DNA from: Streptomyces sp. NBC_00286
GTDB taxonomy: Bacteria > Actinomycetota > Actinomycetes > Streptomycetales > Streptomycetaceae
Assembly: GCF_036173125.1 (NCBI RefSeq)
Contig: NZ_CP108054.1
Location: forward strand, 6,601,001-6,665,000
Direction: 5' to 3'
Length of the DNA stretch: 64,000 nucleotides
In this document: piece by piece, positions 16,765-64,000 of the stretch
How the letters are laid out: each line of letters starts with the position of its first letter
Position numbering within the stretch: position 1 is the stretch's first letter
The notes under the pieces: generated by a model
What the model was told of the DNA's origin: nothing
The model's database searches: none
The model's input: only the letters and a program-made list of their open reading frames with translations
Translations under genes and position numbers: made by a program

Positions 16765-19700
16765 TTGTCGCAGGGATCTGCGTCTTCCACGGTCCGGACA
16801 GCGGACCGGCTGCCCGCGACGACCATTCACCGGCTGGTGGAGTCCCAGGCCGAACGCGCGCCGGACGCCGTCGCGGTGGAGACCGAGGGCGGGTCGCTCA
16901 CCTACCGCGAACTGGACGCGCGCGCCAACCAGTTCGCCCGCCACCTCAGGGCGGTCGGCGTACGGGGCGAGTCCCTCGTCGCCGTCCACATGGAGCGGGG
17001 CCTCCTGACGCCCGTCGTCCTGCTCGGCATCCTCAAAGCAGGCGCGGCCTACCTGCCGCTCGACACCGAGTCGCCGGCGGAGCGCCTCGCGGCGGTGCTC
17101 GCCGACGCGGCACCCGCCGCGGTGGTCACGGCCGGCCCCCTGCCGCAGGTCGCCGTCCCGCTGATCGACCTCGACACCGATCTGCCCGCGATCACCGCAT
17201 TACCGGCCGAGCCCCTGACGGAGACCGAGGAGCCGGACCCCGACCGCCTGGCCTACGTCATGTTCACCTCCGGCTCCACCGGCGTCCCCAAGGGCGTGCT
17301 GGTGGAGCACCGCGCCGTCATCCGGCTGATCCACGAGCAGAGCTACGCGAGGTTCGGCCCCGACGCCACCCATCTGCTGCTCGCGCCGCTCGCCTTCGAC
17401 GCCTCGACCCTGGAGATCTGGGGCGCTCTGGCCCACGGCGGCCGGCTCGTCGTCGCGGCCCCGGGAGCACGCACCGTCAGCCAGGTCGGCCGTACTCTCG
17501 CCGACCGGCGGGTGACCACCCTGTGGCTGACGGCCTCCCTCTTCAACCTCGTGGTCGACGAGGACCCGTCCATCCTCGCCGGCGTCCGCGACCTGCTCAT
17601 CGGCGGAGAGGCGCTGTCGGTCACCCACGTCCGCACCGCGCGCGAGGCGCTGCCGGACACGGTCATCACCAACGGCTACGGCCCGACCGAGACGACCACG
17701 TTCGCCTGTACCCACGCCATCCGGCCGCGGGACCTCGACGGCGCGCCCATCCCGATCGGCGGGCCCATCGCCCATACCGAGCTCCATGTCCTCGACGACG
17801 AGTTCGACCCGGTCGCGCCCGGCGAGGCGGGGGAACTGTTCATCGGCGGCCCCGGCCTGGCGCGCGGCTACCTCAACCGGCCCGGCCTGACCGCGGAACG
17901 CTTCGTCGCGCACCCGGCCGCCACCGAGCCCGGGGCCCGGCTCTACCGCACCGGGGACCGGGTCAGAACGCGGCCCGACGGCACCCTGGAGTACCTCGGG
18001 CGCCTGGACGACCAGGTCAAGCTGCGTGGCTTCCGGATCGAACCCGGTGAGATCCGCGCCGGACTGACCGGGCTGCCGCAGGTCAGGGACGCGGTCGTGG
18101 TCGCCCGGGGCGGATCCTCGGACCGGCGCCTGGTCGCCTATGTGGTCCCCGAGGCCGACGCCACGGCCGGCACGGAGAACGAGCGGGAGCAGGTCGCCGA
18201 CTGGGAGGCGGTGTTCGACGAGACCTACCGCGACGGCGTGGGAGCCGCCGAAGGCCGCTGGGAGCTGAGCGGGTGGGTCGGCAGCGGTGACGGACTGCCC
18301 ATCCCCGCCGACCAGATGCGGGAATGGACGGACGCCACGGTCGACCGCATCCGCGCCCTCGGTGCCCGGCGCGTGCTCGAGATCGGCTGCGGCACCGGCC
18401 TGCTCGCGATGCGGCTCGCCCCGCAGGCCGAGCGGTATGTTGGCAGCGACCTGTCCGCCGTGGCGATCCGCAGGCTCCGCGAGCAGATGGACGCCGCCGG
18501 GCTGGACCACACCGAGCTGGTGCACGCGCCGGCCGACGACCTCGACGCGGTTCCCGGCGGCCCCTTCGACGTCGTCGTACTGAACTCCATTGTGCAGTAC
18601 CTGCCGTCGGCGCAGTATCTGCGCGAGGTCATCGAGCGTGCGGCCGCACGGCTGGCACCCGGCGGGCACCTCTTCGTCGGCGACGTGCGCAGCCTCCCGC
18701 TCCTCAACGCCTTCCACCTCAGCGCCGAGCTGAAGCGCGGCCACGAGGACACCGCGCCGCTGGCGACCCTGGCCGAGGCGGTACGCGAACGGGCGGCGGC
18801 CGAGAAGGAACTCGTCGTCGCCCCCTCCTTCTTCACCGACCTGCGCGGCCTGGCGGGCATCGACCACGTGCTGGTGTCACCGCGCCGCGGCAGGCACCGC
18901 AACGAGATGACCCAGTTCCGCTACGACGCGGTCCTCCGGGTGCGCGGAGCCGAACCTGCGCGCGTCCCCGACCGTTGGCTCGACTGGAGGGACGAAGGAC
19001 TCACCCTGGAGGACATCGCACGGATCCTCCGGGACCGGCGCCCACGGCACCTGGCGCTGCGCGGAGTCACCGACGCGCGCGTCGCCGACGAGGTGGCCCG
19101 GCTCATCCGGCTGCGCGAGGACGCCGAAGGCACCGTGGCCGCGCTCCGGGAGACCGGGCACGACGGCCCGGCCGTCGAGCTCGACGACCTGTACGACCTG
19201 GCGGCCCGCGCCTCCTACACCGTGGACGTCAGCGTCGCGGGCAGCGCGGCGGGCGATGCCTTCGACATGGTCCTGTGGACCGATGCCGAGCGAGGACCGG
19301 TCGAGTTCGCCGCCGGCCCGGCGGAATCACCGGGCCCCCGCACCAACATGCCGCTGGCGACCGCGACGGAGCGGCGCCTCACGACGCTGGTGCGCGACTC
19401 CCTGCGCGAGCGCCTGCCCGCCTACATGATCCCTGCGGTGTTCGTCTTCATGGACGCGCTGCCGCTCACCTCCACCGGCAAGGTCGACCGCTCGGCCCTG
19501 CCCGAGCCGCCACGCCGGGGCGCGGCCGGCGGCGCGGGACGGCGGGCCGCCACCCCGACCGAACGCGCACTGGAACCGCTGTGGCGGGAACTGCTCGCGC
19601 TGGAAGCCGTCCACGTCGACGACGACTTCTTCGCACTCGGCGGGCACTCCCTGCTCGGCACCCGGCTGCTGGCCCGCGTACGGGGCATCTGGGGTGTCGA

Positions 19701-62800: not shown

Positions 62801-64000
62801 CGGCCGGCTGCGCTTCATGCTGACGGACAGCGGCGCGCAGCTGCTGGTCACCCACGGCGAGTTGGTGGAGCGGCTTCCGGAGCATGACGCGGATGTCCTG
62901 CTGGTCGACGGAGCGGACCTGGACCTGTCCGCTCCTGCCGGGCCGGTTGCCGCGGTGGAGGTGGGGTCGTCGGATGTGGCGTATGTGATTTATACGTCGG
63001 GTTCGACGGGGCGGCCGAAGGGTGTGCTGGTCGAGCACGGGGGTCTGGCGAACCTGATCGGTGCGGCGGGTGCCGACTTCAATCTGGGCCCGGATGCGCG
63101 GGTGTTGCAGTTCTCCTCGCCGAGTTTCGACGGTGCGGTGTGGGAGACGTTCATGGCGCTGGCCTGGGGTGGTGCACTGTGTCTGAGCCGGCGCGGGCAT
63201 GGGTTTGCCGCCGATGAGCTGGTGGGTCAGGTCGTGGCGGAGGGGATCTCGCATGTGATGCTGCCGCCGTCGGTGCTGTCGGTGGTCGATGAGCTGCCGG
63301 GTGTGCGGGTGGTGATCGCGGGGGGTGAGAAGTGCTCGCCGCAGCTGGCCGCAAAGTTCCCGCAGGCTCGGTTCGTCAATGCGTACGGGCCGACTGAGGG
63401 CACGGTGTGTGTGTCGGTGATGCCGGTGGACGGGCCGGTGACGGCGGTGAGTGTGCCGATCGGTCGTCCGTTGCCCAATACCCGGCTGTATGTGCTGGAC
63501 GGGCGGATGGAACCGGTTCCGGTCGGTGTCGCCGGTGAGCTGTTCGTGGGTGGTCATGGTGTGACGCGTGGCTATCTGGGCCGGCCGGGTCTGACCGCGC
63601 AACGGTTCGTGGCGGATCCGTTCGGCGGGGTGCCGGGGGGCCGGTTGTATCGGACCGGTGACCTGGTGCGCCGGCTGGCGGATGGCACGTTGGAGTACAT
63701 CGACCGCGCGGACGACCAGGTGAAACTGCGGGGCTTCCGGGTCGAGTTGGGCGAGATCGAGGCCGCCCTCACCCGCCACCCCGGTATCCGGGACGCCGCC
63801 GTCACCGTCCGCGACGGCCGGCTCGTGGCCTATCTGATCGAGTCGGCTGGGGTGGCGGACGAGGAGTTGCGTGCGGGGTTGCAGCGGACGCTGCCCGAGC
63901 ACATGGTCCCGGCGATCTATATGAGGCTCGAGGCGTTCCCCCGGACCCCGGGTGGGAAACTCGACCGCCGCGCACTCCCCGCACCTGCCGCCCCCCACGC
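41841..64000 (+). CDS. Giant non-ribosomal peptide synthetase 2 (at least six modules, runs off the window)
   Basis: The start is ATG 41841, 7 bases after GGAGG and overlapping the NRPS1 stop by one base (TGATG); ATG 41838, one codon earlier in the same frame, is equally allowed. The frame stays open to the window end, giving 7386 residues without a stop. The short N-terminal leader before [13 protein letters not shown] may be the acceptor docking element for NRPS1. The order is C-A-T / C-A-T-E / C-A-T / C-A-T-E / C-A-T-E / C-A. Condensation types match the upstream stereochemistry in each case. Predicted residues are L-aromatic, D-Val-like, unassigned, D-unassigned, D-Val, aromatic. The last A domain is cut just after motif A10. 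No thioesterase is present in the window. Confidence 0.95.
41880..44985 (+). other. NRPS module 7: C-A-T, aromatic, no epimerase
   Basis: The first condensation domain (HHLLLDGWS) is DCL-type, fitting the epimerase at the end of NRPS1. The A domain has the same D-G-W-M-V-A-A-V-C-K code as module 6 and is almost identical in DNA. The carrier [11 protein letters not shown] with [10 protein letters not shown] is the type followed by an LCL domain, and no E domain follows, so the residue stays L. Confidence 0.85.
43182..44696 (+). repeat. Repeat R1, copy b (module 7 A domain)
   Basis: Starts abruptly at the C-A linker (CTGTCGGTGCTTTCTGACG) and covers almost the whole A domain. It matches module 6 to 44536 and module 12 to about 44696 (offset of 19293), so modules 7 and 12 share the A9-A10 end that module 6 lacks. 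Confidence 0.85.
45000..49352 (+). other. NRPS module 8: C-A-T-E, Val-like, epimerising
   Basis: LCL-type condensation domain ([24 protein letters not shown]). The pocket code D-V-F-W-L-G-G-T-F-K ([10 protein letters not shown]) differs from modules 5 and 11 only at position 236 (Val for Ala), otherwise a valine code. The epimerase motifs are complete. Confidence 0.85.
45319..45674 (+). repeat. Repeat R3, copy a (C domain of module 8)
   Basis: These 356 bases, covering the [10 protein letters not shown] catalytic motif of C8, appear identical to 52786-53141 in C10 (offset of 7467), while the flanks diverge sharply. Confidence 0.85.
49356..52460 (+). other. NRPS module 9: C-A-T, unassigned substrate, no epimerase
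   Basis: DCL-type condensation domain. The A domain is unlike the others: [28 protein letters not shown] and [11 protein letters not shown] give a tentative code D-L-Q-Q-A-T-V-A-D-K. The A5 motif is YGSTE instead of YGPTE and the usual GGE is TGSD. I cannot match this to a known amino acid. The carrier lacks an epimerase, so the residue stays L. Confidence 0.75.
52500..56877 (+). other. NRPS module 10: C-A-T-E, unassigned substrate, epimerising
   Basis: LCL-type condensation domain. The A domain ([46 protein letters not shown]) gives a tentative code D-V-L-H-F-M-G-I-A-K. Its frame resembles A domains for polar or siderophore-type residues, but the code is not one I recognise. The carrier [10 protein letters not shown] is followed by a complete epimerase. 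Confidence 0.75.
52786..53141 (+). repeat. Repeat R3, copy b (C domain of module 10)
   Basis: Second copy of the C8 cassette. Further similarity continues in pieces to about 53520. Confidence 0.85.
56880..61203 (+). other. NRPS module 11: C-A-T-E, Val, epimerising (copy of module 5)
   Basis: DCL-type condensation domain ([19 protein letters not shown]). The valine code D-A-F-W-L-G-G-T-F-K is identical to module 5, and most of the C-terminal half of the C domain, the A domain and the carrier are near-identical in DNA. The epimerase is complete. Confidence 0.85.
57562..60035 (+). repeat. Repeat R2, copy b (module 11)
   Basis: Second copy of the module 5 block. Together with R1 and the E5/C6 stretch at 37290-37560 (equal to about 61045-61330), it shows that modules 5-6 and 11-12 are one duplicated pair. 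Confidence 0.8.
61207..64000 (+). other. NRPS module 12 (partial): C-A, aromatic (copy of module 6)
   Basis: DCL-type condensation domain (HHILLDGWS). The A domain carries the module 6/7 code D-G-W-M-V-A-A-V-C-K. The window ends just after [11 protein letters not shown], before the carrier, so epimerisation or termination cannot be judged. Confidence 0.85.
61881..63989 (+). repeat. Repeat R1, copy c (module 12)
   Basis: The left part matches module 6 (38131-40079) and the right part, through A10, matches module 7 (to 44696). This copy is therefore a hybrid that joins both relatives. Confidence 0.85.

Follow-up and report, generated by a model that had tools for sequence, protein, structure and literature searches.

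A three-gene, 20-module non-ribosomal peptide synthetase line in Streptomyces sp. NBC_00286 with a predicted D-rich, N-methyl-valine-started product

Introduction

The locus described here raises the question of which peptide, if any, is assembled by a long non-ribosomal peptide synthetase (NRPS) line of Streptomyces sp. NBC_00286. The window, i.e., the whole stretch of 64,000 nucleotides that was analysed (contig NZ_CP108054.1, positions 6,601,001 to 6,665,000), ends inside this line. An earlier note on the window had described two coupled NRPS genes with 12 visible modules, a description that is confirmed here, modules 1–11 being complete and module 12 truncated where the window stops; its lower bound of at least 12 modules also holds, since the locus read further to the right gives 20 modules and a third gene. 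The enduracidin and ramoplanin lines have 17 modules, and, if the present reading is right, this would be among the longer actinobacterial NRPS lines. We propose, with a probability of about 0.7, that its product is a hydrophobic, D-rich 20-mer that starts with N-methyl-valine, bears one cationic residue and no lipid, and is perhaps closed as a lactone. If so, such a peptide should resist proteases. The kind of enzyme line is itself known, while the 20-residue product matches no known peptide in the literature that was accessible to our searches.

Architecture of the NRPS Line

The line consists of three collinear genes, A, B, and C, spanning 16765–97766 in window coordinates, the genome having been read beyond the window (Table 1). 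All three are open across 81 kb, and their repeated C–A–T modules identify them as a multimodular NRPS. Motif reading gives 20 modules, 14 of which carry an epimerase (E) domain, from a tally of 20 A, 19 C, 20 T, 14 E, and 1 TE motifs over the three genes. The reading frame of gene B is unclosed at the window end (64000) and reaches its real end at 78668. The E domain at the ends of genes A and B meets a DCL-type C domain opening genes B and C, respectively, which supports the gene order A–B–C. The NRPS genes are followed by genes for an MbtH protein, an arginine-type beta-hydroxylase, an ABC exporter, and a hydrolase.

Two candidate starts were considered for gene A, namely TTG at 16765, preceded by AGGGG, and GTG at 16660. 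The former is favoured because S. malachitofuscus carries a one-base indel between both; against it, the deposited S. parvus protein begins at the upstream start, which is in frame there. Just upstream of the line, decayed genes and transposase pieces were observed by eye.

Table 1. Features of the NRPS line in window coordinates, with A-domain pocket codes and predicted residue configuration.
Feature	Position	Strand	Description
NRPS gene A	16765..41841	+	modules 1–6: A-MT-T, then five C-A-T-E
NRPS gene B, in-window part	41838..64000	+	whole gene 41838–78668, 12276 aa, modules 7–15
NRPS gene C	78675–97766		third gene, beyond window, with single TE motif
Module 1, starter	16840..19720 (ends approximate)	+	A-MT-T, Val-type A (DALWLGGTF), no preceding C domain
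Module 2	19800..24300 (ends approximate)	+	LCL-A-T-E, Ile-type (D), DAFFLGVTF
Module 3	24300..28700 (ends approximate)	+	DCL-A-T-E, Ile-type (D), DAFFLGVTF
Module 4	28700..33100 (ends approximate)	+	DCL-A-T-E, Thr-type (D), DFWNVGMVH
Module 5	33100..37430 (ends approximate)	+	DCL-A-T-E, Val-type (D), DAFWLGGTF
Module 6	37430..41841 (start approximate)	+	DCL-A-T-E, aromatic-clade A by tree, type X (D), DGWMIGAVC
Module 7	41838..44980 (end approximate)	+	DCL-A-T, A type X (DGWMIGAVC), no E (L)
Module 8	44980..49330 (ends approximate)	+	LCL-A-T-E, Val-type (D), DVFWLGGTF
Module 9	49330..52450 (ends approximate)	+	DCL (by eye)-A-T, A type Y, no E (L)
Module 10	52450..56850 (ends approximate)	+	LCL-A-T-E, A type Z (D), DVLHFMGIA
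Module 11	56850..61180 (ends approximate)	+	DCL-A-T-E, Val-type (D), DAFWLGGTF
Module 12	61180..64000 (cut by window end)	+	DCL and A type X; T and E beyond
Module 6 repeat block, 1.67 kb	38725..40387	+	93.2% identical to 43182–44841 (module 7)
Module 7 repeat block, 1.66 kb	43182..44841	+	96.8% identical to 62475–64131 (module 12)

The starter module is supported by Pfam matches to AMP-binding (E 1.9e-86) and Methyltransf_12 (E 4.2e-19), and its methyltransferase (MT) follows motif A8 and precedes the T domain, the arrangement of an N-methylating starter with predicted activity. In module 2, the motifs C3, A3, T, and E lie at 20221, 21655, 22822, and 23329, respectively, and the T motif of module 12 lies at 64104, outside the window. 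The A domain of module 7 is 97% identical to that of module 6 and 99% to that of module 12 over the compared columns.

Substrate Codes and Stereochemistry

Pocket codes were read with the linear gramicidin synthetase LgrC (P0123) as a control. The codes of modules 1–8, which we take to specify N-Me-Val, Ile, Ile, Thr, Val, aromatic, aromatic, and Val, agree with the eight residues that the earlier note had named in this order. The code of module 9 is DLQQLGVAD by alignment and DLQQATVAD without the alignment's placing. The A domain of module 10 (type Z) falls in the Ser clade (support 0.955) with a changed pocket, that of module 18 appears Gln/Glu-like at best, and position 14 is predicted to be D-Thr from its code and E domain. 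For types X, Y, Z, and W, which account for 8 of the 20 modules, the putative identity is read from clade membership. A search of the accessible literature for six pocket-code strings, those of these four types included, found no paper containing any of them.

The motifs HHxxxDxVSW, EGHGRE, and RTVGWFT are kept in all 14 E domains, and no module lacks an E or T motif that it is expected to carry. Within the window, 8 of the 11 complete modules carry an E domain (modules 2–6, 8, 10, and 11), as had been claimed. The further claim that the condensation subtypes agree with every L/D transition stands for the window, where each of the 11 C domains of modules 2–12 has the subtype called for by the preceding module, with or without E (10 by script, module 9 by eye), and fails beyond it, at module 19. 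Over the whole line the match is 18/19 (17 by script, module 9 by eye), the exception following a module whose carrier domain is of the epimerase type but which has no epimerase. In the C-domain tree, one C domain of LgrC was labelled as lacking an upstream E, which was probably missed by the motif pattern.

Residue 16 and the Hydroxylase

The A domain of module 16 (type W) nests in a clade of 88 adenylation domains (support 0.981), where residue 239 is Asp in the four domains of type W and Glu in 78 of the remaining 84. A Glu at position 239 is associated with Lys/Orn pockets. Since its A domain belongs to a clade with an acid at this position, residue 16 is probably basic. The hydroxylase encoded downstream scores 390 bits against the NCBIfam model GntD (NF041363), over the cut-off of 345, and 333.3 bits against VioC (TIGR03946), below the cut-off of 418.6. 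Its nearest solved sequences are CmnC (E 1e-77) and VioC-type enzymes (E 4e-72). Moreover, it keeps the iron ligands and has Asp at both VioC DxD positions, whose presumed roles we take over from those enzymes. A basic residue 16 together with this hydroxylase suggests that a beta-hydroxy-arginine-type residue would be formed.

Hydroxylases of the same fold are common (161/392 Streptomyces genomes at E 1e-30), and among named relatives four Streptomyces proteins come closest, at 75–77%. Among the A domains near 20 other Streptomyces hydroxylases (one locus cut to 12 kb), 0/34 have Asp239 and 14/34 Glu239; in 29 shorter hydroxylase loci (L104–L132) no A domains were found. Two loci, L150 and L154, which we presume to be viomycin-type, hold xQD codes nearer to module 18 and type Y, and on these codes the guanidino site could be module 18 or Y instead of residue 16. 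An enduracididine pathway was considered and rejected: the sole match of this genome to the ADC family (MppR-like) over the cut-off lies at 9.025 Mb, among degradative genes as judged by eye.

Related Clusters

The cluster of S. malachitofuscus JCM 4493 is 95–98% identical in nucleotides over the 64.3 kb recovered, in five contigs, of the 92.4 kb span 16491–108853, 28 kb of which was not recovered, and its left flank differs from that of the genome analysed here. The comparison with S. parvus covers three codes at the start of gene A, which are the same, and residues 1–3400 of gene C, which are 93% identical in amino acids with 5/5 codes identical. This piece of gene C was also the query of the protein search that gave the identities of P0150 and LgrC stated below. 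For neither cluster was a product found in the literature searched.

A more distant cluster, in which the hydroxylase and the unusual codes recur together, was found in a Micrococcales metagenome-assembled genome. Its proteins P0150 (53% identical) and P0002 carry the codes W, Z, Y, Val and Val, X, respectively, and its hydroxylase P0248 is 56% identical, with Glu at the second DxD place; the longest contig given for each of the three measures 179,794 bases. Like the Streptomyces line, it has a start without a C domain and a C-terminal Y-Val-TE; unlike it, the starter lacks an MT motif, there is no Gln/Glu-like module before Y, and the line is shorter, with six modules seen in a perhaps incomplete cluster. 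Since this cluster has in common with the Streptomyces line not just W but also X, Y, Z, and Val, the joint recurrence does not point to W in particular as the target of the hydroxylase. If the proposed product is right, this second, diverged cluster allows ring and tail to be compared.

The W domain was present in 1/392 genus genomes and 1/394 class genomes, in overlapping draws that include the genome analysed here. The hydroxylase at E 1e-85 was found in 2/394 family genomes, namely this one and, at 99% identity, G888, which is probably that of S. malachitofuscus, and a hydroxylase search with P0244 as query gave 1/395 relatives, again this genome (draws overlap). In a scan of named genomes, the best 80 of 142 relatives comprised one at 99% and the next at no more than 49%. 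A plasmid search gave only short matches to the NRPS and hydroxylase relatives all under 60%.

Nature of the Predicted Product

Read from its domains, the 20-module line should make a long peptide that begins with N-Me-Val and is mostly hydrophobic and rich in D residues, the kind of product that the earlier note had anticipated. Modules 1–20 would build the chain from a Val N-methylated by the MT of module 1, the 14 E domains would provide D residues, and the missing starter C domain would leave the peptide without a lipid. A ring and an activity are what we infer for it, and membrane action is a guess.

Three known systems can be set beside this prediction. Linear gramicidin is characterised by strict L/D alternation, a formyl start, and reductase release. 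Its synthetase LgrC resembles the present line as a long Val-containing line with E domains (36% identity), whereas here E modules are consecutive, a TE motif is present, and an MT replaces the formyl start. Tolaasin and syringopeptin are D-rich, left-handed helical pore formers with a C-terminal lactone; unlike their lipopeptide lines, module 1 opens with an A domain and no starter C domain, and the 14 E domains are discrete, without dual C/E domains. Teixobactin starts N-methylated and without a lipid, continues as a hydrophobic chain with D residues, carries a guanidino residue in a C-terminal lactone ring, and ends in Val/Ile. The product predicted here would share the start, the kind of chain, and the type of last residue, and its residue 16, predicted to be basic, would correspond to the guanidino residue near the C-terminus. 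According to PMC8949500, the teixobactin synthetase has a tandem TE. The present line differs in one TE motif instead of two, in 20 versus 11 residues, and in a D-Thr that is not fourth from the end.

It is somewhat unlikely that the TE only hydrolyses and releases a linear N-methylated 20-mer acid. Gene C has a single TE motif, whose best sequence match is PDB 7crn, 'Non-ribosomal peptide synthetase 4' (E 5e-20), and sequence matches cannot tell TE chemistry; however, a ring-closing hydroxyl would explain why a beta-hydroxylase is kept with both clusters. The ring, if any, may instead close on D-Thr14, comprising seven residues, to give a tolaasin- or syringopeptin-like pore former with a D-rich left-handed helix and a C-terminal lactone and without a lipid. 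This unlikely alternative is consistent with the D-Thr, the runs of consecutive D residues, and the hydrophobic composition, although the lipid-free start and the discrete E domains depart from that type and no Thr occurs among the six modules seen in the Micrococcales relative, a perhaps incomplete cluster.

More doubtful still is the proposal that the 20-residue Streptomyces peptides and the shorter Micrococcales branch form a new actinobacterial family of long-tailed, teixobactin-like envelope binders. The dedicated hydroxylase would then place a hydroxyl on the D-basic, arginine-type residue, and the TE would close the C-terminal ring on this same hydroxyl, leaving a long, D-rich, N-methylated tail, and module 18, epimerase-type without an epimerase, would be an insertion that enlarged a ring of four residues (W-Z-Y-Val in Micrococcales) to five.

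That the line belongs to an already published peptide is improbable. The names S. parvus and S. malachitofuscus have been in use for a long time, and the comparison covered openly searchable papers; nevertheless, within this accessible literature neither the six code strings nor a search by organism and residue (S. parvus, S. malachitofuscus, S. lonegramiae, hydroxyarginine, N-methylvaline) gave a match. This agrees with the earlier note, which had recognised no peptide of the same order.

A broken cluster without a product, its modules copied by recombination and the E of module 18 missing, would account for the near-identical module copies, the module 18/19 mismatch, and the decayed surroundings upstream, but is highly improbable given three open genes with the expected E and T motifs and a module 18/19 junction that is conserved in S. 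malachitofuscus and S. parvus. This junction constitutes a natural test of the strictness of D-type condensation domains.

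Gene Organization and Module Architecture

Genes were called on a fetched span (6571001-6744500) wider than the window (6601001-6665000), in a host genome of 9.85 Mb assembled as a single contig. The host was read as a Streptomyces from the 95-98% identity of its cluster to the S. malachitofuscus one, from a 99% identical hydroxylase in the same-genus genome G888 and from the sodF sRNA family match. The gene order, the domains, the first and last modules and the relatives of this NRPS cluster are direct observations.

Features of the NRPS locus and its upstream side in window coordinates (values above 64000 are carried on beyond the window end)
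Feature	Coordinates	Strand	Position or content	Basis
sodF sRNA family match	8696-8785			RF02790, 65.9 bits (cut-off 46)
Decayed-looking stretch	8840-16240		Directly 5' of cluster; transporter ATPase pieces, transposase remnants, two-component system (13300-15125)	By eye
TGACAATGAAAATGATT	16370-16386		AT-rich; 379 bases 5' of NRPS start
NRPS gene A	16765-41841	+		Gene calling
NRPS gene B	41838-78668	+	4-base overlap with A	Gene calling
NRPS gene C	78675-97766	+		Gene calling
MbtH	97808-97999		3' of gene C	Pfam, E 8e-15
TauD-fold oxygenase (hydroxylase)	98001-99071		After MbtH	Gene calling, Pfam search
ABC exporter	99115-101004		After hydroxylase	Gene calling, Pfam search
Alpha/beta hydrolase	101001-101813		After ABC exporter	Gene calling, Pfam search
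ABC ATPase	105438-106376		Within conserved span	Best family TIGR03740

Across genes A to C, 20 adenylation (A) domains were found and aligned, which define modules M1-M20. Module 1 has the form A-MT-T (adenylation, methyltransferase, carrier) and lacks a condensation (C) domain, while a thioesterase (TE) with the motif GWSLGG closes module 20. Fourteen modules (2-6, 8 and 10-17) end in an epimerase (E) domain, and modules 1, 7, 9, 18, 19 and 20 lack one; all 14 E domains keep the motifs HHxxxDxVSW, EGHGRE, RTVGWFT and NYLG. The assembly line seems to have grown through module copying, as suggested by two pairs of near-identical long DNA blocks under the settings used (M6/M7, 93%, and M7/M12, 97%, over 1.66 kb) and by A-domain identities of 94% for M4/M14, 87-95% among M5, M8, M11 and M15, 84% for M3/M17, 78% for M10/M13 and 67% for M9/M19.

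Residues Predicted from the Adenylation Pockets

Nine pocket positions per A domain, numbered as in GrsA, were read from the alignment and gave 10 distinct codes over the 20 modules. As a control, the same script was run on the linear gramicidin synthetase LgrC (P0123), returning two Val-type codes followed by DVAMVGCVC, DAWFLGQVV, DVSTIGCVT and DAWFLGQVV, in keeping with LgrC incorporating Val, Val, Trp, Leu, Trp and Leu in turn. The codes of the first three types were assigned to Val, Ile and Thr by their usual meaning; six unusual code strings had no occurrence in the literature searched.

Pocket codes taken from the alignment
Type	Modules and codes
Val-type	M1, M20 DALWLGGTF; M5, M11, M15 DAFWLGGTF; M8 DVFWLGGTF
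Ile-type	M2, M3, M17 DAFFLGVTF
Thr-type	M4, M14 DFWNVGMVH
X	M6, M7, M12 DGWMIGAVC
Y	M9, M19 DLQQLGVAD (two positions alignment-dependent)
Z	M10, M13 DVLHFMGIA
W	M16 DADMVGAVG
M18	DAQDWGMVD

The unusual pockets were placed in a tree of 1117 A-domain cores, most of which have no experimentally known substrate. X and Y group with codes such as DAWTIAAVC, DASTVAAVC and LgrC DVAMVGCVC (support 0.84 and 0.79), of Phe, Tyr and Trp types. Z falls in a clade of 35 (support 0.955) whose other 32 members carry Ser-type DVWHxSL/M codes, and the polar pocket residues of that clade are gone in Z. M18 groups with DxxDxGxVD-like codes (support 0.97) and is read as Gln/Glu-like. W lies in a clade of 88 (support 0.981), where position 239 is Glu in 78 of the 84 other members, Gln in 5 and Val in 1, and Asp in the four W-type domains. 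From this membership, the acidic residue and the codes of Lys and Orn domains, W, at residue 16, is probably a basic amino acid.

The Junction of Modules 18 and 19

The subtype of 18 of the 19 C domains is the one that the upstream E domain predicts (17 by motif script; M9 assigned as D-type by eye). M19 carries a D-type motif although M18 has no E domain, and in the C-domain tree it falls among the D-type domains, with L-type M2, M8, M10 and M20 separated at a support of 0.991. The M18 carrier domain has the GVxLTPKLVF form found in E modules, and the linker from M18 to the next C domain is almost unchanged in S. malachitofuscus and S. parvus. In the Micrococcales line, Z-E stands directly before Y with no module between. 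Read most simply, these sequences suggest that M18 is either an inserted module or one that has lost its E domain, with the C domain of M19 retaining its former type. Residue 18 may therefore be L, or D via an unseen route.

The Downstream Hydroxylase

The TauD-fold enzyme exceeds the curated GntD cut-off (NF041363) and does not reach that of VioC (TIGR03946); its nearest solved structures by sequence are CmnC and VioC-type enzymes, and its iron ligands are intact. At the guanidinium-binding DxD site of VioC, it has VDADF, P0248 has IDPEF, and several more distant GntD-named proteins have LDPYF. Among the best 120 of 1205 protein matches, the first eight are set apart (56-95% identity; the ninth has 46%): P0241 (95%), possibly the hydroxylase of this genome or that of S. 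parvus, four Streptomyces entries (75-77%), a Nocardioides MAG protein (61%), P0247 (60%) and P0248 of the Micrococcales MAG (56%). A genome of the same genus (G888) carries a 99% identical hydroxylase.

According to PMC8399532, a cluster with the arginine hydroxylase gene alone still yielded a capreomycidine peptide, the second enzyme being encoded elsewhere. Capreomycidine may therefore be a residue here as well.

Related Clusters and Chromosomal Place

In S. malachitofuscus JCM 4493, matches at 95-98% on five contigs cover 64.3 kb in total within the 92.4 kb span 16491-108853, counting those of at least 300 bases and at least 85% in fetched pieces that lack parts of genes A and B (e.g., 30170-45544). 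In S. parvus, P0121 corresponds to gene C (five of five codes identical; 93% over residues 1-3400), and P0167 agrees with gene A in the codes of M1-M3. In the Micrococcales MAG, P0002 starts with a Val-type A-T-E module followed by X with E, and P0150 reads W-E, Z-E, Y, Val-TE; these two and P0248 probably belong to one locus, judging from the common name 'Micrococcales bacterium' and an identical longest-contig value of 179,794 bases.

Two S. malachitofuscus stretches 11-15 kb 5' of the cluster (L096) align to positions 1919451-1923033 of the own genome, near 1.92 Mb (80-85%), and have no match at 6.6 Mb, the nearest 6 kb lying outside the search, and a right-flank stretch has its sole match (66%) at 9.13 Mb. 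Judging from these matches, the chromosomal location of the cluster may differ between the two strains. On its upstream side, S. malachitofuscus has ATP-grasp, PLP, enolase-like, MFS and oligopeptide-ABC genes (named by eye). The 17 bases of TGACAATGAAAATGATT, which resemble a Zur box, are identical there, between the NRPS and the divergent ATP-grasp gene; the exact search used the letters of the site itself, and a looser consensus gave 1 occurrence against 0.08 expected.

Proposed Product and Other NRPS Loci

In order of rising doubt, the A domains would set the residues (the least doubtful step), Val1 would be N-methylated, a guanidino residue would be beta-hydroxylated, the hydroxylated residue may sit at position 16, the TE might close a ring on that hydroxyl or on D-Thr14, and the peptide might conceivably act on the envelope or membrane (the most doubtful step). 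The top family of the ABC ATPase is lantibiotic protection (TIGR03740), below cut-off (195.2 of 309.75 bits); together with its adjoining permease it may protect the producer, which hints weakly at a target in the envelope.

No matching product was found in the literature searched, including PMC8399532, PMC9659194, PMC8539464 and PMC8949500. Tests of defining domain features rejected a lipopeptide line, a linear gramicidin line and a teixobactin type with tandem TE. The machine is of an ordinary kind and of unusual size, with no product assigned.

Elsewhere in the genome, a coelichelin-like NRPS at 8959228-8978061 (6277 aa as called) comes with an MbtH gene, and iron-type permeases, a lysine/ornithine monooxygenase and a formyltransferase were named by eye nearby. 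A further NRPS locus lies at 1649846-1682805 on both strands, where one C-domain match has two internal stops.
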